Below are positions 1,285 to 33,013 of a DNA stretch of 64,000 bases, one piece after another. This DNA is from Pontibacter oryzae (lineage in GTDB: Bacteria > Bacteroidota > Bacteroidia > Cytophagales > Hymenobacteraceae). The stretch is from contig NZ_QWGE01000001.1 of the NCBI RefSeq assembly GCF_003576375.1, positions 496,001 to 560,000 on the forward strand. Reading direction: 5' to 3'. Numbering within the stretch: the first letter of the stretch is position 1; each line of letters opens with the position of its first letter. A program made the translations under genes and the position numbers. Below the pieces are notes generated by a model. It was not told the DNA's origin. It made no database searches and saw only the letters and a program-made list of their open reading frames with translations.

Positions 1285-1345
1285 TGTTGATTATATGTAC
1301 AATGTTTTAAATAATGAGAACCTTCAAGGTGTTATTTGCACATAA

Positions 1346-7633: not shown

Positions 7634-8257
7634 CTAATACCATCTCCTACCGACATTAAGTCTTTTTTTTAGATCATACTTATCCATTCTATAATATTCT
7701 AGTATATCTATCTCATCCTCCTCTAACGCTTTGTCTTTTCTGTAGTGCCAATAAGAATTAAAATATCCCTCTCTCAAAGAAAATACAACTTCTTGTAAGC
7801 CATCAGTAAATTCATGTTCAACATTTTCTACATAGAATTGAGTTGTCCTCATATATGCAGAAAAGAATGGTAGATTAATATTCTCTCCAACCCTTGGCAT
7901 TACAGGCAATTGATCTACTTCTAAGTAAAGGTATTTGTCTTTAGTCATACCTCTCAGCATGAATGTATAGCGCACTTTAGGAAAAGAAAAAGTTGGCACT
8001 ACCTCATCCCCAAGCCCTAAATCATCATAAACTTCTAAAATTTGCCTCCTCAGCTCTGCATAGTTTAACCCTAGGGCTTTAGCTAATTCTTTGATAGAGG
8101 GTAATGGTACGCTTTTGCTGTAGTAGTCATTGTCTATTAGGATATGTTGAAGCAGCTTTGTGTATGGCTTATCTTGTTTTAACAAAGCCAATCCATTACT
8201 CTTCATTAGGATAATGTTTGAAAGTACATCTTTGGTTGATAGCTTATCTTCTTTCAC
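7634..8257 (-). CDS. Winged-helix protein at the end of the defence operon
   Basis: A 207-aa protein starting at a GTG (8257); an in-frame ATG at 8206 is an alternative start. Residues 45-80 contain a GntR-like winged helix (VPLPSIKELAKALGLNYAEL). The C-terminal half is a beta-rich domain I cannot name (YLYLEVDQLPVMPRVGENI, FSLREGYFNSYWHYRKD). It lies 107 bases after the UvrD-RelE fusion gene on the same strand. It could be the operon's regulator or a small structural component. Operon regulators are often placed at one edge, and the repeats at 31981-32011 would be a natural operator to test. Confidence 0.65.
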   Translation of the reverse strand: MKEDKLSTKDVLSNIILMKSNGLALLKQDKPYTKLLQHILIDNDYYSKSVPLPSIKELAKALGLNYAELRRQILEVYDDLGLGDEVVPTFSFPKVRYTFMLRGMTKDKYLYLEVDQLPVMPRVGENINLPFFSAYMRTTQFYVENVEHEFTDGLQEVVFSLREGYFNSYWHYRKDKALEEDEIDILEYYRMDKYDLKKRLNVGRRWY

Positions 8258-8364
8258 ACTTCGCCAGGTTGATTAGTGACTGATTTGATGATTGGAGCAG
8301 ACATTAAAAAATCACGGTTTTACATCCTTCTAAAACAAAAACCAGAATCACCTTATACATGTTA

Positions 8365-10470
8365 TTACAGCCTTATCACCTCAGAATGCTGGCCAGTACC
8401 AGTAATGATAACCTTCTGAACAGCTCTGGAGATTGCAACATACATAAGAGACTTTTCTGACTGCGTATGTTCTTTCTTTCTGTCTTCATCCCAATTAACA
8501 GAAGCATAAGGAAGAAATGGACAGGTTCTATTATTCACATCTGCCAGGAAAATAACTTTGAACTCAAGTCCTTTCATACTATGGAAAGTAGAAAGCCTTA
8601 CACCTGTCTTATCGCCAGCTTTCTCATTAGACGTGATATCGTACCAAGGTATATTCGCCTTATAAAGTGCGGATTTGAGTCCTCTTATTTCATCTTTCGT
8701 TCTGGCGCAAATGGCAACCTCAGATAGCAGAAAGTCTTTAGACTTTAACTCTGTAATCTTTTCTTTGATATAGCTGATTTCATCGTCCTTGGACTTGAAG
8801 ATTTGGTAAGTAGGTACATCGCCATGAAATAGCGACACATATCCATTCTTAGATTCTTCTTCACCATCAAAGTCACTAAAAGCAATATCCTGAATCACAG
8901 AAAAGGCTAACTTCTTTATCTCCTCAGATGTTCTATAGTTTATACGAAGTCTTTTGCTTCTGTTACCTCTTATATTTATACCTGCTTTTGAGAAGTATAT
9001 CTTTCTGTCGTAAATCTGTTGAAGAGGATCACCAACCAAGAAAAGGTCATTCTTCTTCTCCTCAATTAATGCACGCAAGAACCGCAACTCAACATTAGAA
9101 AAATCTTGTAGCTCATCTGCAACACAGTGAGCAAAAGGCTTGATGGAGTTTTCCGTAAGATAATCTGTTAACCTATTATAGATTTCTTCTTTATCTATAT
9201 ATCCACTTTCTTTTTTATACTTATCATAACTTTCAAATACGCTCCATAAATTTTGCCTTTGCTTCCTTGAGATGGCTTTCCCCCTACCCACTCTTGAGGT
9301 TCTCAGGTATTCCTGAAGTGACTTTACATTATTATGAAGTATAACTTGGTTGTATTCGCTTATAATAAAATCCCTGTCGAACTCAATTAGATTTTTTTCT
9401 AATAACTCGTCCCAAATCTCCTCTGCTGAGCGCACAGATGAAAAGCCTATTACCTTCGTATTATCATCTATTAAGCGGTAACTCTTTGCCAAATCATAAG
9501 ATAAAGCATCTATATTATTGACCACGACTTTATACTGATCCATCCCCAAATCACTAACCAAGTCCTTTAAATTACTTGTAAGTGCTTTAGTATATGTAGT
9601 GAAGAGAACAGGTCTACTATCCTGAGACGCATTAACCAGGTATTTAAGTCTGTGTAAAGCTGCTACTGTTTTGCCTGTACCAGCTCCTCCAGTAACTTTT
9701 ATAGGACCGTTAAAGTCGCTCTCCACAAGCTTTCTTTGAGTTGGATGTAGAAAGAACTTCCATTTATTCAGCTCACCTGCCAATACCTCATTAAATACAG
9801 AGTCATCAGTAAATTCAATAAAACTTCTCTGGTTGTTTACACTCTTAAGCTGATCCTCGAATTGAGTAGAAGCTACTTTGCCTTCTTCAATCTCATAAAT
9901 AAGATTTTCAATATTAGCGCCATCAGCTAAATAGAACAGATTTTCAAAAGCATCAGCTGGAAGGTATTTCTCCAATGCCTCTAGGCCATCCAAATCAACT
10001 ACTTTCCTGACAGAAGGTATTAGCACCTCTGGTAATCCGATTTTCACAAGATCTTTATCCGTATAATCTGTAAAAAGCTCAAATGAAGTTTCATTTTGGG
10101 AGCTACCTTGGCTATCAGTTTCAACTAACTGTTCAACATCTGGCGAAGTGAACAATTGGATGGATTGAGTATTGGTATTCCACTGAAAGATTTTATTGGT
10201 GGCCCAAGCCATAGCCTCGTCATGATTATCTACCCATAAAAGATAATAGGTGTCCCCTGTTTCTGGTGCCCTTAATATTATCCTGTACTTCTGGTCAATC
10301 CTGGCAGTTCTAAGCTGCTTATCTTTAAATGTAGAGATAGGCTCCAGATGTATAGCGGCTGACTTAGAATTCTCCCTGAACTTCCTTTGAAACTCAATCA
10401 CCTTTTGCTGAGTCCCTCTTGGGAGTTTAATCAATGAGTCAAAGAATTTATCGTAGATGAGTAGCTTCAT
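8365..10470 (-). CDS. UvrD-like SF1 helicase with N-terminal RelE-like domain
   Basis: A 701-aa fusion. Residues 1-95 (MKLLIYDKFFDSLIKLPRG, KYRIILRAPETGDTYYLLWV, HDEAMAWAT) have the strand-helix pattern of RelE/ParE-type toxins. After a linker of about 120 residues a UvrD/PcrA-type helicase follows: Walker A VTGGAGTGKTVAAL (about 262), motif II ADELQDFSN, motif III FLVGDPLQQIY, LRINYRTSEEI, motif V FHSMKGLEF and motif VI MYVAISRA. All helicase motifs are intact. Helicases of this build occur in defence islands; the RelE-like part may bind or cut RNA, or only serve as a binding module. Its start overlaps the end of the upstream DEAD/DUF1998 gene by 23 bases, which points to translational coupling. 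Confidence 0.85.
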   Translation of the reverse strand: MKLLIYDKFFDSLIKLPRGTQQKVIEFQRKFRENSKSAAIHLEPISTFKDKQLRTARIDQKYRIILRAPETGDTYYLLWVDNHDEAMAWATNKIFQWNTNTQSIQLFTSPDVEQLVETDSQGSSQNETSFELFTDYTDKDLVKIGLPEVLIPSVRKVVDLDGLEALEKYLPADAFENLFYLADGANIENLIYEIEEGKVASTQFEDQLKSVNNQRSFIEFTDDSVFNEVLAGELNKWKFFLHPTQRKLVESDFNGPIKVTGGAGTGKTVAALHRLKYLVNASQDSRPVLFTTYTKALTSNLKDLVSDLGMDQYKVVVNNIDALSYDLAKSYRLIDDNTKVIGFSSVRSAEEIWDELLEKNLIEFDRDFIISEYNQVILHNNVKSLQEYLRTSRVGRGKAISRKQRQNLWSVFESYDKYKKESGYIDKEEIYNRLTDYLTENSIKPFAHCVADELQDFSNVELRFLRALIEEKKNDLFLVGDPLQQIYDRKIYFSKAGINIRGNRSKRLRINYRTSEEIKKLAFSVIQDIAFSDFDGEEESKNGYVSLFHGDVPTYQIFKSKDDEISYIKEKITELKSKDFLLSEVAICARTKDEIRGLKSALYKANIPWYDITSNEKAGDKTGVRLSTFHSMKGLEFKVIFLADVNNRTCPFLPYASVNWDEDRKKEHTQSEKSLMYVAISRAVQKVIITGTGQHSEVIRL

Positions 10471-13400
10471 TTTCTATAATATCTAAATCAAAATTTTTAA
10501 TATGATAAACCTTAAATCCAGCCTTCTCAAATACCTTTATATCTTCATCGCTAAAAGGATCAAAAACAATTTTCTTGCTTCCAATAACTAACTCTGCCTC
10601 AGCAACTACCTTTCCTTTATCGTTAGTTAAGGAGTTTATCGTCTCTAGATCAAGATTAATAAACTCATCTACACATTGATTAAAGTAGTATCTGATTACA
10701 GCGTAATATTCCTCTCCGAACTGCTCCAGTAAGATTTCTAAAGGATCACCTTCGTCACTTTCATCTATATTAATATGACCCTCGACCAGAACGTCATCAT
10801 TGGTAACCTCTACTATGTCTGCTGAATCAAAATCACCAAACTGCATTAGGTTGAAGTAATGCCAGAACCATTTCCAGTCTTCCTTGTCTATATGTAGTAA
10901 GGGCTGTAGTTTAAACCTGCTTATAACCTCCCCTTTTACAAAGGATACAAAGGTGCGTGACTCAAATAATGGGCTATTTTTAACTCCCTGGAATGTGAGT
11001 AAACCATCCTTTAAAGTTGCTGCATCTTTTATAAATACATTGTTTCCGATGAAAGGCTGAGAGAAGTTTAGAACTTTCTTGAGGTCAGCAAAGTCAAAAG
11101 ATGGCTGATACAGATTCTCATGATAAAAGCTCAGATAAAGAGCCAAAAGCTTTTTGAAAGATGGATTGATAACTGGGTTCTCCAGCACTACCAAAAATCG
11201 TTCTAAGCTGTTCTTTGCACTGATAAAGGGAACAGAGCTCCCCTTAACTATTTTATTCAGATCTTTTCTGGTTTTCGCAAATGGATTAGAGGAAAGAAGT
11301 TCAGCTAAAGAGTCATCCTTATCTTCATCGAACTGCTCAAGATCATACCAAGTGAGTGTCCACGTTTTATACTCTGGATTATCAACAATAGCCTTACGCT
11401 TCTGAACATCAGTACTAAACCTGTTATTTTCTCTGGAAGCATGGTACTGATAACCGTCTAAGTATATAGCGAACTTAGGTATCCCTAATAAATCCTCTCC
11501 CTCTACTGTCTTACCACCTCTTACAAAAGAAGTGCACTGGAATATAAAGTCAGTTCTGGTTAAAAATGCAACTCCATCACTTGGTCCCAAATCTACCTGC
11601 GGCCTGATATGATAAGATACATCCAAACCCTTACTCTTAATGGTGAGAGTATAGTTTATTACACCGTTTTCCTTTATATCCTCAAACTGCCATCCCAGCT
11701 TATCTGCTCTTTTTCTTAAACTGCGAATAAAGCGTTCCTCTAACTCTGATTCTTCAATTTGGCCAGCACTGGTAACACTACCCAAGCCATATTGCATTTT
11801 TTCCCAGCCTTCATTCTGTTCAAGTATCCTTTTGAACCGTTTCTCGGCTCGTGCTCTACTCAGATCATTTCTATAAAATTGGTTTCCGTAGGAGTATATA
11901 CATCTATAACAGCCATCTTTCCCATTATGCTGACAAGCACAATCTTTGATAGCCTCATATGCATTCTTCAGTAGCTTACTAAATTCAGTTCTGTCAAATA
12001 GCTTCTCTAAATAACCTGTTCCTCCAGGTACTGTGTCATAGAGCACCAAGTACCTGTCAAATTTGAGTGTCTTGTTATTATACTCTTTGTATTTGCTAAT
12101 AGAAATGTGCTGAGGGTTTCCCTTGTAATATTTTTTAAGTCCTAGCTCTATACCTGCCATAAACTGTAGAATCTCTTCCTCACTGTCTAGTTCCTGAACA
12201 GGCAATAGTATCTTAAGTGCTTCTGTAGAAATACTTCTGAAGAAGAAAATCTCTTGAAAAACCTCGTCTGGCTTGCCTTCATATTCTTTCTCCTTATGAA
12301 TACAGAATGCATAATGAGCCTTATATTCCGGCTGATTGTAATGTGATGAAGATTTGCCACAGTGGCGACAGGTTATAAAACCATGGGCAGGTACTTCTTT
12401 CTCGTTAACAACTAACTTTCTGGCATTAACAACATCAGTACGACCCAGGTTAGTATTCGTAATGGTAACCTGCTTTACAAACTCTATCCCAAATGGAATG
12501 CGTTTCATTGCCCACGCACCCTGAGAAGAATCTTCTTTAAAATTAAAGTGGGTGCTTAGGTTAAACTGTAGACTGTCTCGCTCATCCTTATTATCTGTCA
12601 GAGTAGCATCAGATTGACTGTTAAATGACTTAACAGTTGTTAGCTTTGCAAACTTATGCACATTGGAGGCAGCCCCCCACGATTCATGACCGCATTTAGG
12701 GCAAGGACCTTTTTGGGCAGTAACGGCATCCTCTAAGTGATCACAGTTGGAACAAAATCTGTTATCATGATACACCGACTGATCAGACCAGTCGAACGTA
12801 TTTACGCCCGTAACCTTAAACTTAAAACCTTGCGAGTAGAAATGATTATCAGGCGCAAACTCTTTCAGAGCAACGCTAGATGACCGTACTATTTCAAAAT
12901 CTTTGTTAATAGGTGGCTTTGTACTGCCAATAGCTTTGTTGCCTAATACTTTGGCGTTTAGCACTACCCCCGTCTCAGGAAATGCATAGTTAGGAAGCGC
13001 TCCTATGTTTGTCAGGTGCTCTAGAACACTACGCTTCTCAAGGCTTTTCAATATCCCCCATAGGTTCTTCTTTTCACGCTCCTGCTCTATTCTATCCGGA
13101 TCCTCCACACCTAGGTTTTGCTTTTTGATGTGTAGATCTATCTCTTTTCTCTTTTTCGCTATAGAAAGATATTCATCCTGTAGTTTTTTGAAAATAGACT
13201 TATAGAACTGATAAAATGCATCTGACTTTAAACTGAGCAGCAGTTCACTGAACACCTCTTCTTCAACCTCATTTTTATACTCTTCTTTGAATCTTTCGAA
13301 CAGCACTTGCTCTTTTGATTTTATAAAGGAGAGTATCCTGTTCATAAAGAATTCTGGAGCATGAAGATCACTCGTACTGATTCTCAGAAACCTTACTTTG

Positions 13401-16400
13401 GATGGTATCTCATTAGCTGTTGGGCTAAAGCTTGTCCAGGTATCTATACAGAATGCGAAGAAATGTCTCTTTAAGATTTCCTTGGCTTCCAGATAGCACC
13501 CTGGCGTGGCAACTTCGCCTTCCATAATATCTTTTGGTTCGGCAAAGTAGTAGAGGTCATGCGCCTTACTTTGGGCAAAGTTTAGAATGAAAGCAGAGCC
13601 GCTTGATCTACCTGCCCGACCTATACGCTGTAGGTAATTTGAAGGAAGAGGAGGCACTGCATTATTGATAGCAGTATTTAGTGTACCGATATCAATACCC
13701 ATCTCCAATGTACTGGTAGCAACCAATGCATTCAGCGAGTTAAACCTAGATCGGTTCTTAAAGTCATTTTCTTTTAATTCTCGCTCTTTGCGCTCTAACA
13801 GACCTGTATGGTCTGCTGCGTAAATCCTAGGTGACCGTGTTCTATTATAAACAAGCTGATAATAGTTAGGCTTTGCAGTACTCTCCGACTGTATATAATG
13901 ACCATTGCATTGGTAGTTTATGCAGCTGGCTCTATCAATAAAGCGTTGATTACCCGAAGTGTATACTTTATGCCCACACCCACTACATTCCAAAGTATAT
14001 GCTTGATTCAGAGCGAATACTTTGTCGGGGTTAATAGCATAGTTGCTTATATTGTTGGCATGAGCCACGTCAAAGATCTCAGCCTCTACAAGCTTTGCTA
14101 ACAGCTCCGCATAAAACTCATTTACAAGATCAGGGGTGTTAGGTGCCATTAGAAAGCACTTTCTGAAGTAAGCATGAAACCAGTTGGTGTTTCGAGTATA
14201 GGTACTATCTAATACGCCCCTGTTGTCTCTTTCTGCTGTTAATATGCGTGGTATCCTTACTCTTGGACCAAACCTATTATTCAGGAAATGGCGTTCATCC
14301 CGCATCCAGTTCAAATCCCACAACCTCAGATCTCCATTTCTAAATTTGGAAAAGTAGGGGTGATTAATTGCCCCTCTGGTTCGAGTTCTATAAAGAAGAA
14401 GTGTAATGAACCTCAAGAACTCATCTCTACTGACCATGCCCAGGTTATTGTGATCCATCCAAGGCTCCATCAATTGCCATAGCTTTTCAAGAGATGGTTC
14501 ATCAAAAGCAACTGCTGAAGAGGTTGTTTTCTCGAGTGTCCTACCTATTAATGCATTGTACCCAAACTCACTGAATATCTGCCATTTCACCCTTTCATCA
14601 AATTCTCTCTGAAAAGCAGTAGAGTAATGGCCCTTCTCATAATAATCTGCTGGAGTGGCTTTACCAATATAATCAGATGGGAAGAAGCGATAATAGAATG
14701 CATCCAGAACAGAATGGCCGGTTTCATCTGCTTTTTCTTTCCAGTAGCTGATGAACTTTTCAGACAGATCCGTTAAGGATATAGGTTTATCCTGTTGGTT
14801 GAGTACTTTCTGTAATGAAGCCCTGAATGTAAAGTTGTAATTCCTTGCTTCAATAAAACCAGCCTGATGGGCCGCATCCTGTACGCTATTTGTAAAAGCC
14901 AGCACCTTTCGCTTTTGCTCAGGCTGAGCATCCAGGTCAGTGGCTAACACCTGCCCTACAGCTATTGAGCTGAGGGTAGCCACCCGCGTACCAATTATAC
15001 TCAGGCTGTTACGGGACGTACATTCTGGACAAACATGATCATTAAATCCTCTATCATTTATTTTCTTTACAGCTACAACCTTAACCCTGTCTTCTGCTTC
15101 ACTATCATAGAACTCAAAGTTAGAGTTGTTGACTTGCTTTCTGAAAATGTCCGTAGGCTCATAACCATCTATGGGTTCATGCTCAGGGGTATTGATTAAG
15201 TAAATGTGCCTGTGGTTTGAGAAGAACTTAGAATATACATCCTGTATATCCTGTTCCAGTCTATTCTTATTATCATGCTTTTCACCTAACCAACCACTTG
15301 CTCCACATTCCCTACAAAACCATGGTGGCAAAGCCTGAATACCGTTTGGCGTTACATCATCCTTCCATGTAAAGACAGGCTCTTTTGTAAAGCTTCTTAA
15401 TACCCCACTCAGCTCTCTGACCCAAAGCTGAGTATTGACAAAAAGAAAAGGAAATTTCTTTTTACTATTGCCACTTTTAGCCTCTGTAATCAGAGCCAGT
15501 AAAGACTGAAGAACTGTTTCCTTTGGATTGAATGCCCCTACTGGATCCAACTGAGGTAAGCCTTTAAAGTCAAGGTTAATATCACTGAGCGCTCTGATAA
15601 TCTCCTCTACTGTTTTAACACCCGATTCACAAACTTTTAGTAGATCGTAGACTATGAGCTTATTCTTCAGATAATCACCCAACTCAAGACTATTGGTCTC
15701 CTCGCTCAGGTTCCATAGCTTAAGTTGTCTCTTTAAATAGTCCTCGTAACTATCATCAACTAAAAGTTGGCTTTTCCTAAGGCTGTTGATACCCGGCCAG
15801 TTATCATCAAGCTCACTCTTGTCCCTGTTGCCATAGAACTCGTCAATAGAGATTCTATTTTCGGTAATAATGGCAGTACTGTTAAATTCCTCTCCAAATA
15901 CTCTCGCTGCGTAATCTGCCAACATTTGGGGTGCTTCCTCTCCAGATCCAATTGTAGCCGAGGTGCCAACAGGGCATATCTGTCCTTTAGGAATATTTAG
16001 TTTCAGCTTTAAGCGACGAATCAGGTTGGCTACGTCTGTACCTTGGGCCCCATCATAAGTATGAAGTTCATCCAATACGAGGAACTTGAGCAGTTCAGTA
16101 TCTTTAAGATTTGCGGACCATAGACTATGGTACTTGCTTTGCATTAAGCCATAGTCCAGCATTTTAAAGTTTGTGAGCAGAATATCCGGAGCAGCGTCTA
16201 CTATCGAATCTCTGTTCTCAATAATATTGTCAGCACCCATTGTTTTAGGGTACTTCTTGGCATCTTTGCCTTCGCCGATGAATAAGCCCGCCGTTATAAC
16301 TCCTCGTAGGCGATCATCCTCATAAATCGCCTCAGCTAAACGTTTAGCCTGGTCGGTGGCTAAAGCGTTCATTGGGTACAGGATAATAACCTTTATACCT

Positions 16401-16783
16401 GTTCTGTGTCGGTTCTGGTAACAGTAGTCCAACAGGGGGTATAGAAACGCCTCTGTTTTACCAGAACCTGTACCTGTCGTGACGATAGCGGGCTCAGGGT
16501 TTTGTCCATTAGCAGTGCTAAGGCGGTGCCAGCTTTTAACCTGATGATCATAGGGAGGCCAGCTTGGTTTGATTTCTAAAGGTATAGTGGCAATGTCTTC
16601 TTCTTTCGCCTTTACAAAAGGAAGCTTGATAGAAACAAAAGGGCCCTTGAAGATACCGTTATTATTGTCTGTTAGGAAGTCGTAGAACGCCTTATGTACC
16701 TTCTTATCCTGAAAGGTAAAAGTGGCATTCAGATAGGCTATAATGGACTCTCTTATTTCGTATGCTTGTTGAAGACTGAGCAT
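10448..16783 (-). CDS. Giant DEAD/DEAH helicase with DUF1998 (DruE/DrmA-MrfA type)
   Basis: A 2111-aa SF2 helicase. Walker A is VTTGTGSGKTEAFL (about 104) and the DEAH box is LDELHTYDGAQGTD (about 238), with VGTSATIGS after it. The C-terminal RecA lobe has TLEMGIDIGTLN (about 1026) and RIGRAGRSSGSA (about 1055). Several zinc-binding pairs follow (CRECG, CPEC, CSGCG, CSNC/CPKC, CRHCG). The DUF1998 signature is GGTGYLEKLF with CACQHNGKDGCYRC (about 1620). Beyond it, at 1680-1790, ELEERF, TDFIFQ and AIYLDGYQYHA resemble a degenerate PD-(D/E)XK/Vsr-like fold. Size and layout match DruE of Druantia; shorter relatives are DrmA/DrmB of DISARM and MrfA. In such systems the protein is thought to travel on phage DNA. 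Neighbours lie 52 bases upstream and overlap 23 bases downstream. Confidence 0.9.
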   Translation of the reverse strand: MLSLQQAYEIRESIIAYLNATFTFQDKKVHKAFYDFLTDNNNGIFKGPFVSIKLPFVKAKEEDIATIPLEIKPSWPPYDHQVKSWHRLSTANGQNPEPAIVTTGTGSGKTEAFLYPLLDYCYQNRHRTGIKVIILYPMNALATDQAKRLAEAIYEDDRLRGVITAGLFIGEGKDAKKYPKTMGADNIIENRDSIVDAAPDILLTNFKMLDYGLMQSKYHSLWSANLKDTELLKFLVLDELHTYDGAQGTDVANLIRRLKLKLNIPKGQICPVGTSATIGSGEEAPQMLADYAARVFGEEFNSTAIITENRISIDEFYGNRDKSELDDNWPGINSLRKSQLLVDDSYEDYLKRQLKLWNLSEETNSLELGDYLKNKLIVYDLLKVCESGVKTVEEIIRALSDINLDFKGLPQLDPVGAFNPKETVLQSLLALITEAKSGNSKKKFPFLFVNTQLWVRELSGVLRSFTKEPVFTWKDDVTPNGIQALPPWFCRECGASGWLGEKHDNKNRLEQDIQDVYSKFFSNHRHIYLINTPEHEPIDGYEPTDIFRKQVNNSNFEFYDSEAEDRVKVVAVKKINDRGFNDHVCPECTSRNSLSIIGTRVATLSSIAVGQVLATDLDAQPEQKRKVLAFTNSVQDAAHQAGFIEARNYNFTFRASLQKVLNQQDKPISLTDLSEKFISYWKEKADETGHSVLDAFYYRFFPSDYIGKATPADYYEKGHYSTAFQREFDERVKWQIFSEFGYNALIGRTLEKTTSSAVAFDEPSLEKLWQLMEPWMDHNNLGMVSRDEFLRFITLLLYRTRTRGAINHPYFSKFRNGDLRLWDLNWMRDERHFLNNRFGPRVRIPRILTAERDNRGVLDSTYTRNTNWFHAYFRKCFLMAPNTPDLVNEFYAELLAKLVEAEIFDVAHANNISNYAINPDKVFALNQAYTLECSGCGHKVYTSGNQRFIDRASCINYQCNGHYIQSESTAKPNYYQLVYNRTRSPRIYAADHTGLLERKERELKENDFKNRSRFNSLNALVATSTLEMGIDIGTLNTAINNAVPPLPSNYLQRIGRAGRSSGSAFILNFAQSKAHDLYYFAEPKDIMEGEVATPGCYLEAKEILKRHFFAFCIDTWTSFSPTANEIPSKVRFLRISTSDLHAPEFFMNRILSFIKSKEQVLFERFKEEYKNEVEEEVFSELLLSLKSDAFYQFYKSIFKKLQDEYLSIAKKRKEIDLHIKKQNLGVEDPDRIEQEREKKNLWGILKSLEKRSVLEHLTNIGALPNYAFPETGVVLNAKVLGNKAIGSTKPPINKDFEIVRSSSVALKEFAPDNHFYSQGFKFKVTGVNTFDWSDQSVYHDNRFCSNCDHLEDAVTAQKGPCPKCGHESWGAASNVHKFAKLTTVKSFNSQSDATLTDNKDERDSLQFNLSTHFNFKEDSSQGAWAMKRIPFGIEFVKQVTITNTNLGRTDVVNARKLVVNEKEVPAHGFITCRHCGKSSSHYNQPEYKAHYAFCIHKEKEYEGKPDEVFQEIFFFRSISTEALKILLPVQELDSEEEILQFMAGIELGLKKYYKGNPQHISISKYKEYNNKTLKFDRYLVLYDTVPGGTGYLEKLFDRTEFSKLLKNAYEAIKDCACQHNGKDGCYRCIYSYGNQFYRNDLSRARAEKRFKRILEQNEGWEKMQYGLGSVTSAGQIEESELEERFIRSLRKRADKLGWQFEDIKENGVINYTLTIKSKGLDVSYHIRPQVDLGPSDGVAFLTRTDFIFQCTSFVRGGKTVEGEDLLGIPKFAIYLDGYQYHASRENNRFSTDVQKRKAIVDNPEYKTWTLTWYDLEQFDEDKDDSLAELLSSNPFAKTRKDLNKIVKGSSVPFISAKNSLERFLVVLENPVINPSFKKLLALYLSFYHENLYQPSFDFADLKKVLNFSQPFIGNNVFIKDAATLKDGLLTFQGVKNSPLFESRTFVSFVKGEVISRFKLQPLLHIDKEDWKWFWHYFNLMQFGDFDSADIVEVTNDDVLVEGHINIDESDEGDPLEILLEQFGEEYYAVIRYYFNQCVDEFINLDLETINSLTNDKGKVVAEAELVIGSKKIVFDPFSDEDIKVFEKAGFKVYHIKNFDLDIIENEATHLR

Positions 16784-16835
16784 TTAGGGATCAGGAATAC
16801 AGTTAGAATGAGCTATTAGTAAGCTTGTTTTAATT

Positions 16836-18581: not shown

Positions 18582-18590
18582 TGCTCCTTT

Positions 18591-21500: not shown

Positions 21501-24005
21501 AAGGCCTCCTTTTGTAGGGAAAATAGCAAGTTCTGAAATTGCTATTTCATAATAATTACCTCTTATAGACTTAATAAAGCTTAATAGGTTGATTGCCTCA
21601 GCAGTGTTATAATCTTGTGAAGCGGCTAACGATTTTATTTTACTATAGAGTAGCTCTGCATTTTTGTTAAGGCTTTCATCTGTTACTAGAGTATTGATAA
21701 TATTGGTATACGAACTAAAATCATCTGAAAACCTTAATCCTGTCTTAACCAATACATCTGCATATTTTTTCAGTTTGCTTGTAGTAATCAATAAAGCATA
21801 TTGGTCCTTTTCATTGAGCCACTCAATATATCCAGATGTTAGTCTAAGTTCTTTAGCTTCGTAAAACCAAGATTTGCTATGATTATCAAAAGAATGCTGA
21901 ATGTCACATGAAATTTCTTTATTAAACTGAAAAAGATTAAGTGTACATAGCACTTCAGTAAGTTTATCTGTAAGCTGATGTACTTCGCATTGAGGTATCA
22001 AATCTTCTTCAACCCAATTGATAAAGGGTTTGATAGTTTCTGATGGGACATTTACCAACCATTTTTTAAGAGCTAGGCATTTTTCATCATCAGCTAATGC
22101 TTCCAGTAATTCAGCATATCCTATTTTGGTAATCTCCCCGAATACTTCTTTCTTAAGTATTCTGCTATCAATATCGCTAGCTGGCAACTTTTTGCCTGTA
22201 CCTGTTATCTCATGATATAGCGATACAGGTATAACTTTTGTAATACCGATCAGATCTAGTACGGTATCTTTCTGATGCTGCAGTTCACCGTCCTCGTTCC
22301 GTATAAATGCTACTTCCTCTATTGCTTGTAGGTATGAATTGTTAAAATACTTAACTAGCTCGGTTACGTCATTGTCCTCTGCTTCCATCTCATTAGGCAG
22401 GAGCAGGTTTAGATAATTAGGTTCATCTTGGAGAGCAAGGTTTGCTACCCATTCAACCATCTTTTTGCCTATCAAACCCATCAATAAATGATTCCATGGA
22501 TTATCTCCTTGTAGCTCTTCACGATTTGAAGAAGGTATAAAATCCGCATTTACTAGAAAAGGCAGTCGAAGACGATTCTCACGCATAGGTAAGTAAGTGT
22601 AGAAGTAAGAGAACCTTTCATTCTTCTTAAAAGAAGGTTCTTCATCTACTTTACCTTTAAAAACCGGTGCGGCGAATGACACAGTAGCAGCTTTGAATGC
22701 AGCAATTTTGGGAGGTATAGTCTCCAATTTTTTACCATCTTTAGTACTAAAGAAGTAGCGTTTTTCCCCTATTTCTATAGTATCTTCTTCTTCACAGCGA
22801 ACTAAATCTATATCAAGCTCTTCAATTAATTCGTCGTTTACAGGTACTGCAAATTCTTTAGTTGTATAGGTTAGAAACTCAGATGGCTTTGGCTTTGGGA
22901 AATCCAGCTTTATGCTAACTACATCATCTTGCTTCTTCTTATTAACTCTAAGAAAATGATTACTGAATTGCACGAGAGAAGTATTTCTTAAGAAAAGCAG
23001 GAATCTGCCATCATCAAATAACTCCTTTATCTCATTTTCATAACCTGTTAAGCTATTAGCTCCTATTTTAAGTCCAATGCTTACATTGTTATTCTTTGTG
23101 AAATCACTTTTCTCTAAATCATCAGGCAAAGTGTCTGCCCACAGAGGCAGTAGCTGCCATGGAATACTGGTTAAGCCCTGAAACTTCTTGGAAGCACTTG
23201 CATATTTCTTTTGATCATCTTCACGCAGCCCTGGATACTTGATGTATTTATCTCTGCCCTCAAAGTAAAACGTATTAAAGCTTTTATAGCTTTCGTTGTA
23301 TCTATCAAACTTGAAGTTGAAACCACCAGATTTAATGATAACTTCTTCAGAATCTGTAAAAACTGACTTAAAGCCTATACCCTTATAACCTGTTTTATCC
23401 TGGCGCTTCTGTTTGGTACTTTCTGCAGCACTTGTGATAGACTCTACATCATCTTTATCAAAAGGAAGTCCATCATGCATCAGGATAAGGTAATCACCTT
23501 TTGTCTCCAGATAAAACCTAACATCTCCTGAAGATGTAGGCACATCATCTGCATTCTGCAAGAGCTCAAAAAACATCCGTTTTCTTGAGGAATAAAGCCC
23601 TTTTCCTACCTCTTTTAGTAAGCTGGCAATAATTAAGTTGGCATCTGGGTTATCCAGGCGTTCAAAACGTTGCTTTATAACTTCCTGAAAAGGGTTATTA
23701 TCTAACTTTTTGTATCCTTTCTTTTTATCAATATTGAGGTAATACTTATCTCCGGTTTTGGTACGGATACTCTCAGGTGCTAACGCAATACTAAACTCAT
23801 AAAACCCGCCATCTTCTAACTCAAGGATACTTATTGGTATACCAACCCCCATTCTGCGGCCTGTATCAGGGTGAATTAGATACTTACACTCATTAGCAGA
23901 GATAAGCTCGTTCAGATAGCCGCGTTCATCATTTAATTTGGAATATATACCGTAGAAACGGTTTTCAGGCACGTGCTGTGCCGACAAGAAGTCTTGTATG
24001 GTCAT
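18591..24005 (-). CDS. Sacsin-like GHKL ATPase, 1804 aa
   Basis: The N-terminal 250 residues carry a GHKL (Hsp90/sacsin-like) ATPase: N-box FFELLQNADDVP (about 148), G1-type box LMHDGLPFDKDDV, and GYKGIGFKSVF (about 212). About 1400 residues of helical, poorly conserved sequence follow. A folded C-terminal domain comes last (DLDKVVQMSKNKEALQKG, then FYFHSAVGGLLFLTPGI), in the position where DUF3883 often sits, though I cannot confirm that family. Such proteins appear in defence islands, presumably as switching platforms; the target is unknown. The gene begins right after a strong terminator that follows the methylase gene and ends ten bases before the SF1 helicase start, so it is the first gene of the second half of the locus. 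Its central part is distinctly AT-rich. Confidence 0.85.
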   Translation of the reverse strand: MTIQDFLSAQHVPENRFYGIYSKLNDERGYLNELISANECKYLIHPDTGRRMGVGIPISILELEDGGFYEFSIALAPESIRTKTGDKYYLNIDKKKGYKKLDNNPFQEVIKQRFERLDNPDANLIIASLLKEVGKGLYSSRKRMFFELLQNADDVPTSSGDVRFYLETKGDYLILMHDGLPFDKDDVESITSAAESTKQKRQDKTGYKGIGFKSVFTDSEEVIIKSGGFNFKFDRYNESYKSFNTFYFEGRDKYIKYPGLREDDQKKYASASKKFQGLTSIPWQLLPLWADTLPDDLEKSDFTKNNNVSIGLKIGANSLTGYENEIKELFDDGRFLLFLRNTSLVQFSNHFLRVNKKKQDDVVSIKLDFPKPKPSEFLTYTTKEFAVPVNDELIEELDIDLVRCEEEDTIEIGEKRYFFSTKDGKKLETIPPKIAAFKAATVSFAAPVFKGKVDEEPSFKKNERFSYFYTYLPMRENRLRLPFLVNADFIPSSNREELQGDNPWNHLLMGLIGKKMVEWVANLALQDEPNYLNLLLPNEMEAEDNDVTELVKYFNNSYLQAIEEVAFIRNEDGELQHQKDTVLDLIGITKVIPVSLYHEITGTGKKLPASDIDSRILKKEVFGEITKIGYAELLEALADDEKCLALKKWLVNVPSETIKPFINWVEEDLIPQCEVHQLTDKLTEVLCTLNLFQFNKEISCDIQHSFDNHSKSWFYEAKELRLTSGYIEWLNEKDQYALLITTSKLKKYADVLVKTGLRFSDDFSSYTNIINTLVTDESLNKNAELLYSKIKSLAASQDYNTAEAINLLSFIKSIRGNYYEIAISELAIFPTKGGLNLPLKALVHQDTPNLHPSFNQFYLTFADWQLIKNTPLADATITFDKVIDEIVCNEKHLELVKAKVNADTLPSFYEALKKYLDESEYEDLSRQSIEVICTSTVDELLFDIPGNVLYNDALRNLTRDEFHAVKEILEECSNYKLSLPVYEALDFIESAAFKCKDESVVSYMQSDLEVPVSSIDALIKYLKSSEHKEPLFNRVLLKSTDSSNIQIGINKTGGTHQVRANKKLYEYACSFNGYENSYFLLPGSIRDKALEDLKLMYERELIDHLLNEAEYDCKLVEFIEGKGAERELKFLSNISEIPLYTTDEGTNTWSLSTLNLIKPILLKEELSKTEVDLLNCVRKAITIDGKTREEYNTAQDVVLKSNTESNKQYVFELSQLIETNNKGLSIKEIKTILPKWSSKELEKLFEPHRVTAKEIEEIFKKDKTYSGYKLAFAVCLFDAGFKLITGLNFNSGLSERFTNGFLDEIKKQKAYHFLPLLKCLQVNNHDAIILDARLRLEGSIEEPPKWLETWGKLDKSNLEFLYKSGLKGADSDLIELRQQFLKDEFDDTYSSLIHSKEIPIGAYNRTLEWLVSTFEILSSHQAKAYVELCEAMLGKAGHVISHVIQESFEEDGITAYSFTKAAKYFIPSDFTEEEIRQVSVVANANNIPLIPSFCPVKLSLILGKKAVEIEKNVLDPACIEDAELWGNQFYQNWAYRDTYKIYRIQSEFSRMDTVFDEAIVVYETEEKVLEHDGSYYTNIQDDQELALSLQLSDTAHILELVKGIIADKSEPRRREEEDYDDPNYATEYEEIVRDFRDLDKVVQMSKNKEALQKGIIHLADSGFEFSVSFISGNAIYNAKKDGISYKFYFHSAVGGLLFLTPGIMEDLYESETGVIVLYPNGQVKHFVGIDELIENPENSYFLLRAKNNKDKEQFRQVISVARQYQSHFMFVTSEEMRKKLYDSREERKQNQSLKGQSDFDPSTF

Positions 24006-24070
24006 GGTAAGGAAGGTATTTGTTTTCGATAGCTATATAGTAAAAGCAAGATAGTAATTAGTTTATAAAA

Positions 24071-24123
24071 AATATAAGCCTGTAGCCTTATAATTTAATA
24101 TTATAAGGCTACAGGCTTATATT
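24071..24123 (-). terminator. Strong terminator inside the defence locus
   Basis: A perfect 24-base stem (24071-24094 and 24100-24123) with a 5-base loop is followed on the minus strand by a run of six T. It lies between the methylase stop (24144) and the sacsin-like gene start (24005), so it should end or attenuate the SNF2-methylase transcript. Confidence 0.8.
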
Positions 24124-24143
24124 TTGCTGCGCTATGTTAGCGT

Positions 24144-29051: not shown

Positions 29052-29086
29052 GTGCCTTTAGTTAATCTGTTTTCTGGTGCAGCTGA

Positions 29087-31960
29087 CTAGTTATAGAAGA
29101 CAGCCAGTATTTTCAGGTATGCGTCCTGGTTAAGCGAGGTAAGATCTTTGTAATATTGGCTCGACCTGCTCACAATAGTTTCAATCTCACGCTCCGTATC
29201 TTCTTTCTTTCGCATAATGATACCCGTCATGGTTTTATCCTGAAAGTCGATAGCTACCTGCTCTTTGGCAGAGGCTTCCCAAGCTTTCAACTGCTCCTGG
29301 TATTTCGTAAGCAAGCCTTCCATTTCAATTTCCTTCTGCACTTGCAGCTGGCGCATGTATAATTCCTGCCCGAACTGTACAACCTCTGGCAACAAGGACG
29401 TGAGTTGCGTTGTATCTGACTCAGCCACATATTCTGTGCTCAGGTCAGCATCTAATTTATACTTGTCTACAAACTCCTTAAGCGTATAAGGCTTGTCAGC
29501 TATACCTCCCGCCATACTCAAAGGCACTACAAAGAAAGAAGACACCACAGCCTGCCCCAGGTTATTCGTGATCTGGCCATGCACCACAAAATATGCTCTG
29601 CCCTCTGGCAGCCTAGATAGCTTTGCCACAAGCGCCACATCCTTATCTACACTCGCTTCTAACTTCGTCATGAAGTAGCGCATAATAGGGTGCAGATCAT
29701 ATAGCATCTGAAACTTGGCCCACTCCCCTTTTTTCTTCCGTGCCTCCTCTATGGCATTCTGCACCGTACCCTTATCAGTACTCAGGCGGTAAATGTCGTT
29801 TACCTTCACTTTCGCCTCAGGTGGCAAGTCGTACAGTATAGCGTTAAGTTCTTTTGTATTTCTGATTTCCAGATAAGTAGGATCAACAAAATTTGCATCC
29901 TGCTGCTCCAACAGCTGCACACTCTTTAGCTGCTCAATCAGGCTTTGGTAGAATTCGTTGTCACGCTCAAACAGCGTCGCAACCTCTTCAACAGGCTCCT
30001 CCTCTACATGGCTGTCTGTTATATCACCCTCTCCTGCAAAAAGCGCGTCCAGGTCAAAATCAATATCGTCGCTTAAGAAACCCTCATCCTGTTTTGCAAT
30101 AGCCTGCTGTACAATTTGTTCTTCCTGACCTGAGTCATAAAGTTTCAGTACTGAGCCAGCATCCCCTAAGGTCTTGTATACCTCTTCCTCCTTTTTAGTA
30201 AGGTTCTCAATGATGTGCAAGTCCGTTTTTAATCCCTCTACTTCAGAAGTTGCTACTAGGTAGTAGATATAAGGCGTGTTTTTCTGGCCGTAGCGATCTA
30301 TCCTACCGTTTCGTTGCTCCAGGGTTATCAGCGACCAAGGGATGTCGTAGTTAAACATCCTGTTACAGTAGTAGTGCAGGTTAACCCCCTGAGAGCCTGC
30401 GTCAGAAGCAATCAGAATCCTAACATCAGAGTCTTTCTTACCGAAGTCTTCAACTATACCCTGCTGCTCCACATCTGTTAAGCCGCCATGAAATTCAACT
30501 ATAGCTTTCTCATCAAGATTGAAGTCCTGCGTCAGGCGCTCCCGTAGGTATTTTATGGTATCAATTCGCTCAGCGAAAACGACAATACGATCGTCCTTTG
30601 GTCGGCCACTCCAGCCCAGCTTAACAAGCTGATTCTTGAAAGCTTCGTACTTGGAGTCCTTTTTAGAAGCAAGTATAATCTCTAGGCCTTCTTTTAGACC
30701 TTTCAATAAATCAAGATTATCCTCAGCCTTTTCTGTCTGCACACCAGACTTCTCAATCCTGTCTATTCGGTTACAAATAGTTGAAAATGCAGCCTTAGGT
30801 GAGGACATATAAGCTTTGAACAAGCCGATCGCAAAAAGAAAGTCCCTTTGCTCCGCTCGTTTGTTCTTACCAAACAGGTTTTCCTCTGTCTCTTTATCCA
30901 AGTTCCTGAGTGCCTCAAACTTAATCTTTTGTTGCTCTCTCAGGAAGTCTTCTTCTACATCAGTAAGCGGCGCATGTATAGGTACAATCTTGCGATCCTG
31001 AAAATTGGCCTGTACCTCCGCATCAAGGATGTGATGTTTAAAACGTCTAACGTAATATGGCTCCACGTCAGCTTTAGCGTAGTCACCAGTACGAGGTATA
31101 GCCGTTGGCTCAATCATGTTTATCAGATTGGCAAAGCTTTCCTTTTTACCGTTGTGTGGCGTAGCAGATGTAAGCACCAGCGACTCACATTTAGTAGCCA
31201 AGAACTGCGCAAGGTCGCCTCGCTGGCTGGAAGAGTTGGCTACCGTATGGCATTCGTCGATAACAATAATATCCCAGCGTGACTTTTCGATGTAGTGTCT
31301 GAATTTAGCGTTATTCTTTAGTGTGTCGATAGACACAATAGTCTTGTCGTAGTAATCGAACGGGTTCTTATTGGCGGGTAATTCTGCCTTGATCTGGGCT
31401 ATACCTTGTGAATCAAGACGAACCAAAGGTATAGCAAACCGATTCCACATTTCCTGCTGAAACTGCCCCAGAATAGATTTCAAGGCCAGCACCATCACAC
31501 GCTTCCCCTTTCCTCTCTTAATCATCTCAGAGAGGAAAATACCCACCTCGATGGTCTTACCCAAGCCAACACCATCAGCAATCAGAATACGGGGACGTGG
31601 TAGCTTAAACGCTTTAAGAGTGGGATCAAACTGGTAGTCGGCTACATTGAAAGCAGCTTTCTGAGCTATACATATCTTGTTACTGTTAGTAACAGAATTT
31701 CTTAGCTGCGTCTCCAGGTATAGCTTTGTTTTCCTATACCCATAATCGGTATCGGCCTCTAGCTTGGTATTTACAGGATCCAGCACCTGAATATCCGTAT
31801 CTAGTTTAGAATCGAATGTAAATCGCTTTCCTTTTACCAGTTCACTTATCCCTTCTGCATCCAACAGAACAGATCCATCATAGTTTTCAATGATATTGGT
31901 AACCAGGAAATCCTCTCCTCTTGTAGATATTCTCGTGCCAGGGGCGTATGCAATGCTCAT
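29087..31960 (-). CDS. SNF2-family helicase (DrmD/RapA-like)
   Basis: The frame is open from 32014, but the ATG at 31960 (MSIAYAPGTRISTRG) is chosen because the upstream part overlaps the promoter; this gives 957 aa. Walker A is ADGVGLGKTIEVGIF (about 131), motif II is VIDECHTVAN (about 235), and TSATPHNG follows. The second lobe has IASDAGSQGVNLHY and QRNGRIDRYGQ (about 557). The C-terminal 300 residues are helical and include two segments with coiled-coil character. SNF2/RapA-like translocases partnered with a large methylase are typical of DISARM class 1 (DrmD with DrmMI) and of helicase-methylase-ATPase systems. It is the first gene of the minus-strand cargo and has a promoter with two 10-bp repeats just ahead of it. 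Confidence 0.9.
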   Translation of the reverse strand: MSIAYAPGTRISTRGEDFLVTNIIENYDGSVLLDAEGISELVKGKRFTFDSKLDTDIQVLDPVNTKLEADTDYGYRKTKLYLETQLRNSVTNSNKICIAQKAAFNVADYQFDPTLKAFKLPRPRILIADGVGLGKTIEVGIFLSEMIKRGKGKRVMVLALKSILGQFQQEMWNRFAIPLVRLDSQGIAQIKAELPANKNPFDYYDKTIVSIDTLKNNAKFRHYIEKSRWDIIVIDECHTVANSSSQRGDLAQFLATKCESLVLTSATPHNGKKESFANLINMIEPTAIPRTGDYAKADVEPYYVRRFKHHILDAEVQANFQDRKIVPIHAPLTDVEEDFLREQQKIKFEALRNLDKETEENLFGKNKRAEQRDFLFAIGLFKAYMSSPKAAFSTICNRIDRIEKSGVQTEKAEDNLDLLKGLKEGLEIILASKKDSKYEAFKNQLVKLGWSGRPKDDRIVVFAERIDTIKYLRERLTQDFNLDEKAIVEFHGGLTDVEQQGIVEDFGKKDSDVRILIASDAGSQGVNLHYYCNRMFNYDIPWSLITLEQRNGRIDRYGQKNTPYIYYLVATSEVEGLKTDLHIIENLTKKEEEVYKTLGDAGSVLKLYDSGQEEQIVQQAIAKQDEGFLSDDIDFDLDALFAGEGDITDSHVEEEPVEEVATLFERDNEFYQSLIEQLKSVQLLEQQDANFVDPTYLEIRNTKELNAILYDLPPEAKVKVNDIYRLSTDKGTVQNAIEEARKKKGEWAKFQMLYDLHPIMRYFMTKLEASVDKDVALVAKLSRLPEGRAYFVVHGQITNNLGQAVVSSFFVVPLSMAGGIADKPYTLKEFVDKYKLDADLSTEYVAESDTTQLTSLLPEVVQFGQELYMRQLQVQKEIEMEGLLTKYQEQLKAWEASAKEQVAIDFQDKTMTGIIMRKKEDTEREIETIVSRSSQYYKDLTSLNQDAYLKILAVFYN

Positions 31961-31980
31961 CTCGTGGGTAAATATTATAT

Positions 31981-32014
31981 CATAAAGATATAGTAAAAAT
32001 CCATAAAGATACAA
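31981..32014 (-). promoter_or_regulatory. Promoter of the defence operon with duplicated 10-bp box
   Basis: CATAAAGATA occurs at 31981-31990 and again at 32002-32011, 21 bases (two helical turns) apart. On the minus strand TATCTTTA (31983-31990) is one base from the -7 consensus TAnnTTTG, with TTG (32012-32014) placed 21 bases upstream as the -33 element. It ends 21 bases before the ATG at 31960. The duplicated box may also serve as an operator. Confidence 0.5.
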
Positions 32015-32174
32015 TGATCTATTTAGGTGACTACTATCACCTACTTAACAAATTGTCAAAACATTGATTATAACGAGAAATGAGTTCTTTGCCCAGCATT
32101 ATCCCCCCACTTGAGCTGCAAACTATATATGAAGATTTTAACTCCTATCTTTGTTTCACAGCCACCGATCGGTT

Positions 32175-32855
32175 ATGAACGAAAAAGAACTAGTAGAATT
32201 TATTAACAGGTCAGACAGATCCGTTCTAAAGGAGTATTTAGATAGCTTAAAGGCTAAAATAGAAACAATCAACACGAGAATAGAGAGAATCTTACTGTTG
32301 CTTCTGCTTACATTTATATCATACTTTCTAATTCAGGACGCTTCTATATCCAATATTAACCTCGGTATCATTGAGCTCAGCAAAGCAGAGGTAGGCACTA
32401 TTATGATACCTCCAGTTTTTGCTTTCCTTTACTTCTACTATGCGGTTCTTAATAACCACTTAGCTGTTACCCTCAAAATGAGCAAGGTAATGGCTCACTA
32501 TCTACTATACAATGAGATAAAGTCAGTCTCTCAACTCAGCAACCCTGGGGATATAATTCTCCAGTTCCTGCCATTCTCATTCCTGTCTGATTTGTTTAAA
32601 ATAAGCCTGAGACCTTTAGCCTTTGGTTGCATCTTTATAATACTTGCTCTTCCTATATTGCTTATGATTGGGTTTATACCTTTTTGGTTTGAGTACTTTA
32701 CTATCAGATACTTGATAGAAAACTATTGGGGGAAGAGCATATTAATAATGCCTGCTGTAATAGTGAGCACGTGGTTTGCTATTTTAACAGTGGTGTATAT
32801 TATAAAATTTGCTTTTGAAACTCAGAACCTCGAAAAAGGTAACGTGGCTGATTAG
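32175..32855 (+). CDS. Small multi-pass membrane protein divergent from the defence operon
   Basis: The frame is open from a TTG at 32151; the ATG at 32175 (MNEKELVEFINRSDRS) gives 226 aa. After a charged N-terminal helix there are four hydrophobic segments: ILLLLLLTFISYFLI, GTIMIPPVFAFLYFYYAVL, FGCIFIILALPILLMIGF and ILIMPAVIVSTWFAILTVVY. I do not recognise the family. It lies inside the element, transcribed away from the SNF2 gene. Membrane proteins bordering defence operons are sometimes effectors that damage the cell envelope when infection is sensed; that role is only a possibility here. It could equally belong to the element's maintenance. Confidence 0.65.
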   Translation: MNEKELVEFINRSDRSVLKEYLDSLKAKIETINTRIERILLLLLLTFISYFLIQDASISNINLGIIELSKAEVGTIMIPPVFAFLYFYYAVLNNHLAVTLKMSKVMAHYLLYNEIKSVSQLSNPGDIILQFLPFSFLSDLFKISLRPLAFGCIFIILALPILLMIGFIPFWFEYFTIRYLIENYWGKSILIMPAVIVSTWFAILTVVYIIKFAFETQNLEKGNVAD

Positions 32856-32918: not shown

Positions 32919-32940
32919 ACTTGACCTATAACTTGACCCA
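32919..32940. repeat. Right copy of the inner 22-bp repeat (probable integrase arm site)
   Basis: Exact copy of 1509-1530, made of two ACTTGACC units around TATA. A partial inverted copy, GTTATAGGT, lies just before it at 32882-32890. Its position 50 bases from the att core suits an integrase arm site. Confidence 0.7.
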
Positions 32941-32980: not shown

Positions 32981-32990
32981 CTGAATTAAA

Positions 32991-33013
32991 TGTGATCCCG
33001 TTTGGATTCGAAC
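32991..33013. repeat. Right att core inside tRNA-Arg
   Basis: The 23 bases identical to 1380-1402. They form the T-arm and acceptor 3' strand of the intact tRNA-Arg gene, so integration preserved the tRNA. Confidence 0.9.

Follow-up and report, generated by a model that had tools for sequence, protein, structure and literature searches.

The window analyzed here is a 64,000-nucleotide (nt) stretch of the Pontibacter oryzae genome (contig NZ_QWGE01000001.1, positions 496,001 to 560,000), in which an element integrated at a tRNA-Arg gene carries seven consecutive genes on the minus strand (Table 1). All seven are uninterrupted open reading frames (ORFs) in the ORF list of the 64-kb window, at the places recorded in the initial annotation, and most of its domain calls hold as well: SNF2/Helicase_C, an Eco57I methyltransferase, SACS, AAA_11/AAA_12, DEAD with Helicase_C and MZB, and UvrD. 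Judging from order, length and catalytic motifs, genes 1, 2, 5 and 6 are armA, armB, armC and armD of the anti-phage system ARMADA type II, and the two genes between armB and armC encode a sacsin-type GHKL ATPase (hereafter SAC) and a UPF1-like helicase.

The tRNA-Arg element and its ARMADA type II operon

The island is a tRNA-Arg integrative element spanning positions 1380-33013. Its placement inside an integrated element by the initial annotation is borne out by the 23-bp attachment (att) repeats, the tRNA-Arg(TCT) gene, the tyrosine integrase and a congener, G1435, that has the tRNA cluster without the element. Across 76 kb of sequence (L125, L126 plus 36 kb from the window), the 23-mer is present at these two sites alone. 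In G1435 the tRNA-Arg-Pro-Ser cluster is present, with 74% DNA identity from window position 32986 on; the 17 kb to the left of the cluster gave no match to the 76 kb searched, and window positions 1-1379 have no match in the congener. The first gene is open over 29087-32014 (975 amino acids (aa) from a TTG), the ATG at 31960 being the better start. The intergenic gaps are 35 nt (armA-armB), 138 nt (armB-SAC), 9 nt (SAC-UPF1), 52 nt (UPF1-armC), -23 nt (armC-armD) and 107 nt (armD-gene 7).

ARMADA type II is a bacterial system of four genes, armA-armB-armC-armD (Bell et al. 2025 preprint, PMC12458937). As described in the main text of the preprint, ArmA is BrxHII-like, ArmB PglX/YeeA-like, ArmC YprA-like with a Vsr nuclease, and ArmD a RelE-GajB protein; the E. 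coli system, for which all four genes are needed, protects against 13 of 80 phages, and this protection is direct and non-abortive. We compared the window proteins with those of an E. coli plasmid locus (L101, NZ_CP026578). Identity is 34% for ArmA and 37% for ArmB (near full length), 30% for ArmC (residues 1-1817) and 33% for ArmD, and the lengths are 957/1635/2111/701 aa in the window vs 952/1636/2113/704 aa in E. coli. All the listed residues that were mutated in E. coli (ArmA K136/D236, ArmB N971, ArmC K110/D234, ArmD K266/D454; PMC12458937) are matched by motif in the window proteins, namely by the Walker residues of ArmA, K153/D253 (K135/D235 from the ATG), ArmB N988, ArmC K109/D238 and ArmD K267/D452. 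For the S-adenosylmethionine-motif glycine of ArmB (G605), the window protein has the motif EPAMGAAA near residue 600, the residue alignment being available only in the ArmB pairwise comparison.

At the C terminus of ArmC, a Vsr-like block of the D...DG..YH...D..KR type is visible in 19 of 19 aligned ArmC proteins (one with IR and two with QR for KR), so that as a sequence motif the Vsr-type nuclease of the system appears to be present. ArmC matched the PDB entries 9tu7 (2108 aa; E 2e-44), which we take to be DruE, 9wae and YprA (6znp, E 3e-20). PDB sequence searches with ArmB and with the ArmD N terminus gave nothing useful, and a scan of viral contigs with ArmC was unproductive. The RelE-UvrD fusion of the initial annotation was recovered by Pfam in its UvrD part; the RelE-like N terminus was seen neither by Pfam nor by PDB sequence search, but it is 42% identical to the N terminus of the E. 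coli plasmid ArmD, which is termed RelE-like in PMC12458937.

The BrxHII-like, PglX-like methyltransferase, YprA and RelE-GajB proteins are encoded in the expected order, armA-armB-(cargo)-armC-armD. The preprint terms the four-gene order strict (PMC12458937), and in the window this order is interrupted by the cargo between armB and armC; since the order of the four genes is kept, we read the locus as a variant of ARMADA II rather than as a non-member. The suggestion of a composite or new system was therefore correct as to a composite; the locus is not an undescribed seven-gene system, given that genes 1, 2, 5 and 6 already carry a name and genes 3 and 4, and probably gene 7, lie outside it.

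The first pair had been likened to DrmD-DrmMI of DISARM, the giant helicase to DruE of Druantia and the ensemble to the Hma class, and PADLOC does match the operon proteins to DrmD (326 bits), DrmMI (182), DruE3 (338) and HmaA (204). However, DrmB, DrmC, DruH, PglZ and HmaC are absent from the PADLOC matches listed for these proteins, and ArmB, ArmC and ArmD align with their E. coli ARMADA counterparts along most of the sequence. We rejected DISARM, whose DrmA/DrmB/DrmC core is incomplete among the matches listed (DrmA matches ArmC with 62 bits and ArmA with 223 bits, in each case through shared helicase parts), Druantia III, defined by DruH with DruE, and Hma, of which the HmaA-type helicase similarity is found without the HmaB/HmaC set. 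A variant of any of the three is thus very improbable, and the proteins are better read as ArmA-ArmB and ArmC. Separately, the PADLOC type IIG restriction model PDLC03614 gives ArmB 1705 bits, and ARMADA may therefore be reported as a type IIG restriction-modification (RM) system.

Gene 7 was rejected as a member of the system. It recurs in no other locus examined: no counterpart was found among 1201 ORFs of 84 loci and 8 ORFs after armD, tblastn in ARMADA loci was without match, and the label "winged-helix" has no support from Pfam, which gave no match. G+C content was also discarded as a sign of insertion (SAC 0.36, UPF1 0.39, yet ArmD 0.38). A second direct repeat, of 22 bp, lies just inside both element ends (1509-1530 and 32919-32940) and perhaps represents integrase arm or excisionase sites. 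Divergent from armA is a 234-aa plus-strand ORF (32151-32855) that is membrane-like by eye and has no Pfam family above the cut-off.

Table 1. Coordinates of the element and its genes in the window
Feature	Position	Strand	Evidence
Left 23-bp direct repeat (att) of the element	1380-1402	+	identical to 32991-33013
Tyrosine integrase	1564-2781	+	Pfam Phage_integrase, Arm-DNA-bind_5, Phage_int_SAM_5
207-aa ORF (gene 7), probably outside the system	7634-8257	-	no counterpart elsewhere
armD, RelE-like + GajB-like UvrD helicase, 701 aa	8365-10470	-	Pfam UvrD
armC, YprA/DUF1998 helicase, 2111 aa, Vsr-like C-terminal nuclease motif	10448-16783	-	DEAD, Helicase_C, MZB; DruE models up to 338 bits
UPF1/SMUBP2-like superfamily 1 (SF1) helicase, 581 aa, PIN-less short form, cargo gene 2	16836-18581	-	AAA_11/AAA_12
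SAC, sacsin-type GHKL ATPase, 1804 aa, cargo gene 1	18591-24005	-	Pfam SACS; PADLOC TmtA 318 bits; GHKL motifs
Hairpin with a run of T in the armB-SAC gap, resembling a terminator in either direction	24074-24120	-	RNA fold -37.3 kcal/mol, z -9.6
armB, PglX/YeeA-like adenine methyltransferase, 1635 aa	24144-29051	-	Eco57I methyltransferase; NPPW motif; PADLOC type IIG 1705 bits
armA, BrxHII/SNF2-like helicase, 957 aa	29087-31960	-	PADLOC DrmD 326 bits; SNF2/Helicase_C
Right att repeat, overlapping tRNA-Arg(TCT) 32992-33066	32991-33013	-	23-bp repeat, 3' end of tRNA

The SAC-UPF1 gene pair

Genes 3 and 4 form a coupled pair of their own that is mostly found without ARMADA. With SAC as the query, a collection of 5.8 billion proteins yielded 25 matches including SAC itself: one at 61% identity, thirteen of 1649-2044 aa at ~23-27%, and ten weaker ones. 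Scanning genome contigs with the single protein was unproductive, and the PDB sequence search retrieved sacsin alone (E 0.005). A profile scan of the contigs with the SAC-family alignment found 148 relatives, and the loci analyzed below are the best 80 of these by likeness to the window protein. A UPF1-like gene lies just downstream of SAC, on the same strand, in 45 of the 80 loci, with gaps of -14 to +12 nt except in L017, where SAC is split; in five loci the contig stops directly after SAC. GHKL-helicase fusions were found in P0017 and L059, the latter, counted among the 45, having a helicase piece behind it. The UPF1-like helicase matches SMUBP-2 in PDB (profile A3, E 3.5e-28) and contains the motifs GPPGTGKT, EEASQ and TSRA. 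ARMADA genes are present in 4 of the 80 loci (L005, L024, L039 and L057; fetched flanks of at most 10 kb). SAC, the GHKL platform of the initial annotation, is tied to gene 4 and not to the other helicases.

Outside ARMADA, where flanking genes were scanned for part of the loci (9 + 10 proteins), SAC-UPF1 is also found within or next to type I RM, BREX, type III RM/Piwi and reverse transcriptase loci. In L029, a type I RM locus, HsdS precedes SAC and HsdR follows UPF1 at a distance of 3 nt; L031 has the same layout by similarity. The SAC-family gene of L037 stands in a BREX context (Eco57I methyltransferase, PglZ with 759 bits, BrxL), and a type III Res gene lies beside SAC in L002 and L078. 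Piwi-domain (Argonaute-like) genes precede SAC by 25-27 nt in two loci from different SAC clades (L002:7556-9616 and L056:7684-9762), and AbiP2-type reverse transcriptase genes precede it by 12-28 nt in three (L012:7219-8931, by profile; L021:7340-8947 and L030:6758-8362, by similarity). Further neighbours are ZacC (L028), a GmrSD-like gene (L006) and genes resembling helicases or mad8 (L003, L010, L015); the neighbour in L023 gave no match in the flank scan. In the papers listed by our searches of the open-access literature, supplements apart, we found nothing on a sacsin/GHKL-UPF1 pair or on ARMADA cargo.

Helicase-linked SACs end in a NOV_C-related domain that lacks the E-x-K motif. The homology of these C-terminal domains is evident from comparisons of A2 with A5 (E 9e-24), A5 with A4 (E 1.8e-7) and A2 with A4 (E 6.6e-6), the control comparison, A2 with A3, giving E 0.42; a PDB sequence search with the NOV_C set returned nothing useful. 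By pattern, the C-terminal motif is intact in none of 46 helicase-linked GHKL proteins, and 34 unlinked ones (those at contig edges apart) comprise 15 with D...ExK and 9 with a FIDACA motif, which we read as caspase-like. Of the 10 remaining unlinked proteins, two (L034 and L050) look intact on inspection and three (L025, L043 and L080) are short. The domain of L033 is dead, a separate Schlafen-AlbA gene accompanies L061, L076 has an ORF in the corresponding place, and no effector was recognised in L068 and L075. In a curated table, an intact C-terminal effector (nuclease or caspase-like) is found in 0 of 45 linked and 26 of 31 unlinked proteins; over 7 independent pairs the contrast is opposite in 5-6 and the same in none (p ~0.03).

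The long form of the helicase, in 22 of the pairs (about half), carries a PIN domain, and the window helicase is of the short form. PIN_4 was matched in the L006 and L008 proteins, and the four acidic PIN positions are kept in 21-22 of the 22 long helicases in the aligned C termini.

Two GHKL loci without the helicase have other arrangements. In L069 (9875-14923) the caspase-like motif follows a Schlafen AlbA_2 domain, Pfam Raptor_N being below the cut-off there; in L061 (6107-7174) Schlafen AlbA_2 is encoded by a separate gene downstream of the GHKL gene.

A cargo slot between armB and armC

Within one clade of ARMADA II from Bacteroidota, the armB-armC junction functions as a cargo slot. Searches with ArmC in four overlapping draws of 395, 395, 395 and 390 genomes gave 16 close matches (the own genome and others at 42-57% identity, with a partial one in G1436) plus 8 more distant matches at 31-34%. 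Wherever contigs let this be seen in the close clade, armA, armB, armC and armD are found together, so the expected co-occurrence of the seven genes is realized for these four; genes 3 and 4 are mostly apart from them and gene 7 is in no other locus searched. The junction is fully spanned in 12 of the close set and filled in 10 (9 of 11 without the window): in the window, G142, G484, G505, G973, G1037, G1129, G1163, G1180 and G1286. It is empty in G1440 (153 nt) and G1327 (87 nt). In G395, G535 and G1194 the contig ends within the junction, leaving a foreign gene in front of armC in each case; G1436, with its broken armC, was left out of the count, and G1163 and L024 (Rudanella), alike in gene layout, were treated as one locus.

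SAC-UPF1 occupies 3 of the 12 spanned slots (2 of 11 without the window). By Pfam and PADLOC, 9 of the 10 filled slots contain AbiE, Tiamat, GmrSD-like, Schlafen-AlbA or SAC-UPF1 genes, and the tenth, G1129, contains four small ORFs outside the scan. AbiEi/AbiEii (216/344 bits) occupy the slot of G142, two GmrSD-like genes that of G505, and SLFN_AlbA_2 those of G484 and G973. TmtA is found in G1037, L039 and G1180 (906, 906 and 1263 bits), and L057 holds a TmtA-like gene according to the tree and Pfam SACS; the TmtA copies of L039, L057, G1037 and G1180 retain the C-terminal catalytic motif, unlike SAC. Before armC, the truncated G1194 has UPF1/MkoA-like, PIN_4/OST-HTH and IetA-like genes, and G535 a DUF4407 gene. 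Beside TmtA in the G1180 slot (L117/L118, 17900-21131 of the joined stretch) we also noted an ATPase and HNH-like pair that is Septu-like by eye.

Three pairs of relatives show cargo swaps at gene ends. In G505/L005 and G1037/G1327, the two DNAs of a pair cease to be alike 10-63 nt short of the armB stop codon and are alike again from 4-6 nt before armC. In G1129/G1180, two stretches of 82-86% identical DNA, one reaching the third small slot gene and the other starting 54 nt ahead of armC, flank 0.7 vs 12.1 kb of unlike DNA.

Elsewhere the junction is mostly closed. In the distant set, 6 of 7 junctions seen (G215 apart) are closed, whereas in G344 (L090, L091) 24 kb with long ORFs of 1565, 1231, 1042 and 821 aa separate armB from armC; a Nostoc junction contains one 188-aa ORF. 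A 1-kb junction query from E. coli matches 518 of 5,426 genomes. In 514 of these 518 a single place covers 80% or more of the query, in a test that joins pieces up to 1,000 bases apart and could thus hide shorter inserts. In the ArmC tree (FastTree), a 17-row clade has 15 filled and 2 empty junctions and a 9-row clade 7 empty and 2 filled; of the filled rows, three were contributed by the SAC search and three are cut by contig ends. DruE was preset as the outgroup, so this tree is no test of the Druantia reading.

The slot might be a passive insertion hotspot in a long operon that can absorb insertions at the ends of its genes, the defence genes being simply what islands contain. Consistent with this, the armA-armB gap takes cargo too (GmrSD and YhcG in G1163; NOV_C and SoFic, 377 bits, in G1286), part of the cargo is of unknown kind, and strong hairpins follow armB in several loci: besides the window, G142, G1129, L057 and the empty G1440, others being without one. 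However, such tolerance leaves the closed junctions of the other ARMADA clade, in E. coli and in the distant Bacteroidota, unexplained, and we regard it as a real possibility that is nonetheless on the unlikely side. The hairpin suggests that the cargo may be transcribed apart from the ARMADA genes; a sigma-70 scan found 35 sites vs 36.5 expected.

SAC-family modules were inserted into ARMADA repeatedly. On a tree that was built from 85 GHKL domains by a quick method, with L059 as a long branch and 10 ARMADA rows of SAC and TmtA type, the ARMADA-borne rows entail 7 changes, at least 6 of them forced by starred branches, against a shuffle mean of 9.6. L005 pairs with the stand-alone L002, L024 with L027, L039 with G1286, and L057 with L037. 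Among 390 genomes of the window's order, ARMADA is present in 9, SAC-family genes in 16 and both in 5 (4 of them inside the slot), a sharing above chance (hypergeometric 7e-6; 9e-5 for the 4 without the own genome). This sharing, the common strand and short gaps of all the genes, and the recurrence of SAC-UPF1 in this slot in six loci (the window, L005, L024=G1163, L039, L057 and G1286; TmtA-type genes are also assigned to the slots of L039 and L057) could also be accounted for by one integrated system, with SAC and UPF1 as obligatory subunits added to an ARMADA core. However, the pair is mostly found without ARMADA, close-clade ARMADA has other cargo or none in 9 of 12 loci, and four genes suffice for the E. 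coli system as described in PMC12458937. An integrated system is accordingly improbable.

Proposed mechanism and comparison with known systems

We conclude that the window probably contains a tRNA-Arg element with a complete ARMADA II, into which an independently moving SAC-UPF1 module was inserted at an armB-armC slot where defence modules are exchanged. The observations behind this reading are the anatomy of the locus, homology, the two-gene coupling, repeated insertion, the swaps at gene ends and the loss of catalytic motifs; the anti-phage effect of SAC-UPF1 is a prediction from sequence. We further propose, at roughly even chances, that SAC-UPF1 is a defence family of its own, in which the fused nuclease of a GHKL sensor died once an in-trans UPF1-like helicase, often PIN-bearing, became the effector, and which inserts as two genes into methylase-type operons, ARMADA II offering a dedicated slot.

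In this proposal, ArmB would mark host DNA and join in recognition, and ArmA, ArmC (helicase and Vsr-like nuclease) and ArmD would attack incoming phage DNA, the cell surviving; DruE, a relative of ArmC, is described as loading on 3' single-stranded DNA (text of PMC13192584). SAC-UPF1 would add a second, complementary layer. The GHKL ATPase of SAC may sense infection and close on ATP, and its NOV_C-like C terminus, having lost the catalytic residues, may dock the UPF1-like helicase. Helicases of the UPF1/SMUBP2 family belong to superfamily 1B and move with 5'-3' polarity. Licensed by the GHKL sensor, the helicase would act in trans as the effector on RNA or DNA, with a PIN nuclease of its own in about half of the pairs and without one here.

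Several points weigh against these readings. The SAC loci are the best 80 of 148 chosen by likeness to the window protein, and the effector table was curated by hand; 5 of its 31 unlinked GHKL proteins have no recognised effector, among them L033, with a dead domain and no helicase. Because the window helicase is without PIN and SAC without the catalytic motif, this copy has no identifiable nuclease of its own. The idea that the embedded copies, 8 of 8 of which are PIN-less, borrow the nuclease of the host system was considered and rejected (Fisher 0.0014, but p 0.5 over independent pairs). The ARMADA-borne GHKL rows show some clustering, since 6 of 500 shuffles needed as few changes. Among the slot genes of G505, G1163 and G1180, several are without match or outside the scan. 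Nor is cargo a requirement, given that two of the 12 slots hold none.

If correct, the ARMADA operon is a docking site at which AbiE, Tiamat, GmrSD-like and SAC-UPF1 systems change places at one junction, and the natural swaps G505/L005 and G1129/G1180 make nested immunity testable. SAC-UPF1 is a concrete two-gene candidate system and gives an evolutionary reason to suspect that the effector working with a GHKL sensor is the UPF1-like helicase. To profile tools, such a locus looks like fragments of type IIG RM, DISARM, Druantia, Tiamat and Mokosh systems.

Tiamat is a single-gene system. SAC resembles its TmtA in being a sacsin-type GHKL ATPase related over much of its length, but is paired with a helicase and has a C-terminal domain without catalytic residues. 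Mokosh combines the MkoA helicase with a kinase or phospholipase-D partner; the window helicase scores 118 bits as MkoA, but the locus has neither partner and the 581-aa protein is short. The pairing of helicase and PIN also recalls nonsense-mediated decay, here in bacteria. ArmC belongs to the same family as the YprA helicases and DruE of Druantia III, but has no DruH match beside it and bears the Vsr-like block rather than the phospholipase-D domains described for Druantia III in PMC12458937.

The window locus resembles ARMADA II in the order, domains, lengths and catalytic motifs of the arm genes and in its carriage on a tRNA-integrated element. It differs in its Bacteroidota host and in the 7.4 kb, holding two genes, that separate armB from armC; the main text of PMC12458937, supplements apart, does not contain the terms GHKL, Tiamat, Mokosh or Bacteroid-. 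Embedded defence as such is already known: TgvAB is nested in a type I RM operon (PMC11411939), and embedded defence genes in Hma were described by Payne and co-workers, as cited in that text. The ARMADA slot and the SAC-UPF1 pair appear to be new. What the locus shares with Hma and TgvAB is a small defence module within a larger defence operon; here, by contrast, the chassis is ARMADA II, the cargo is of another kind, and a single slot receives many alternative cargos.

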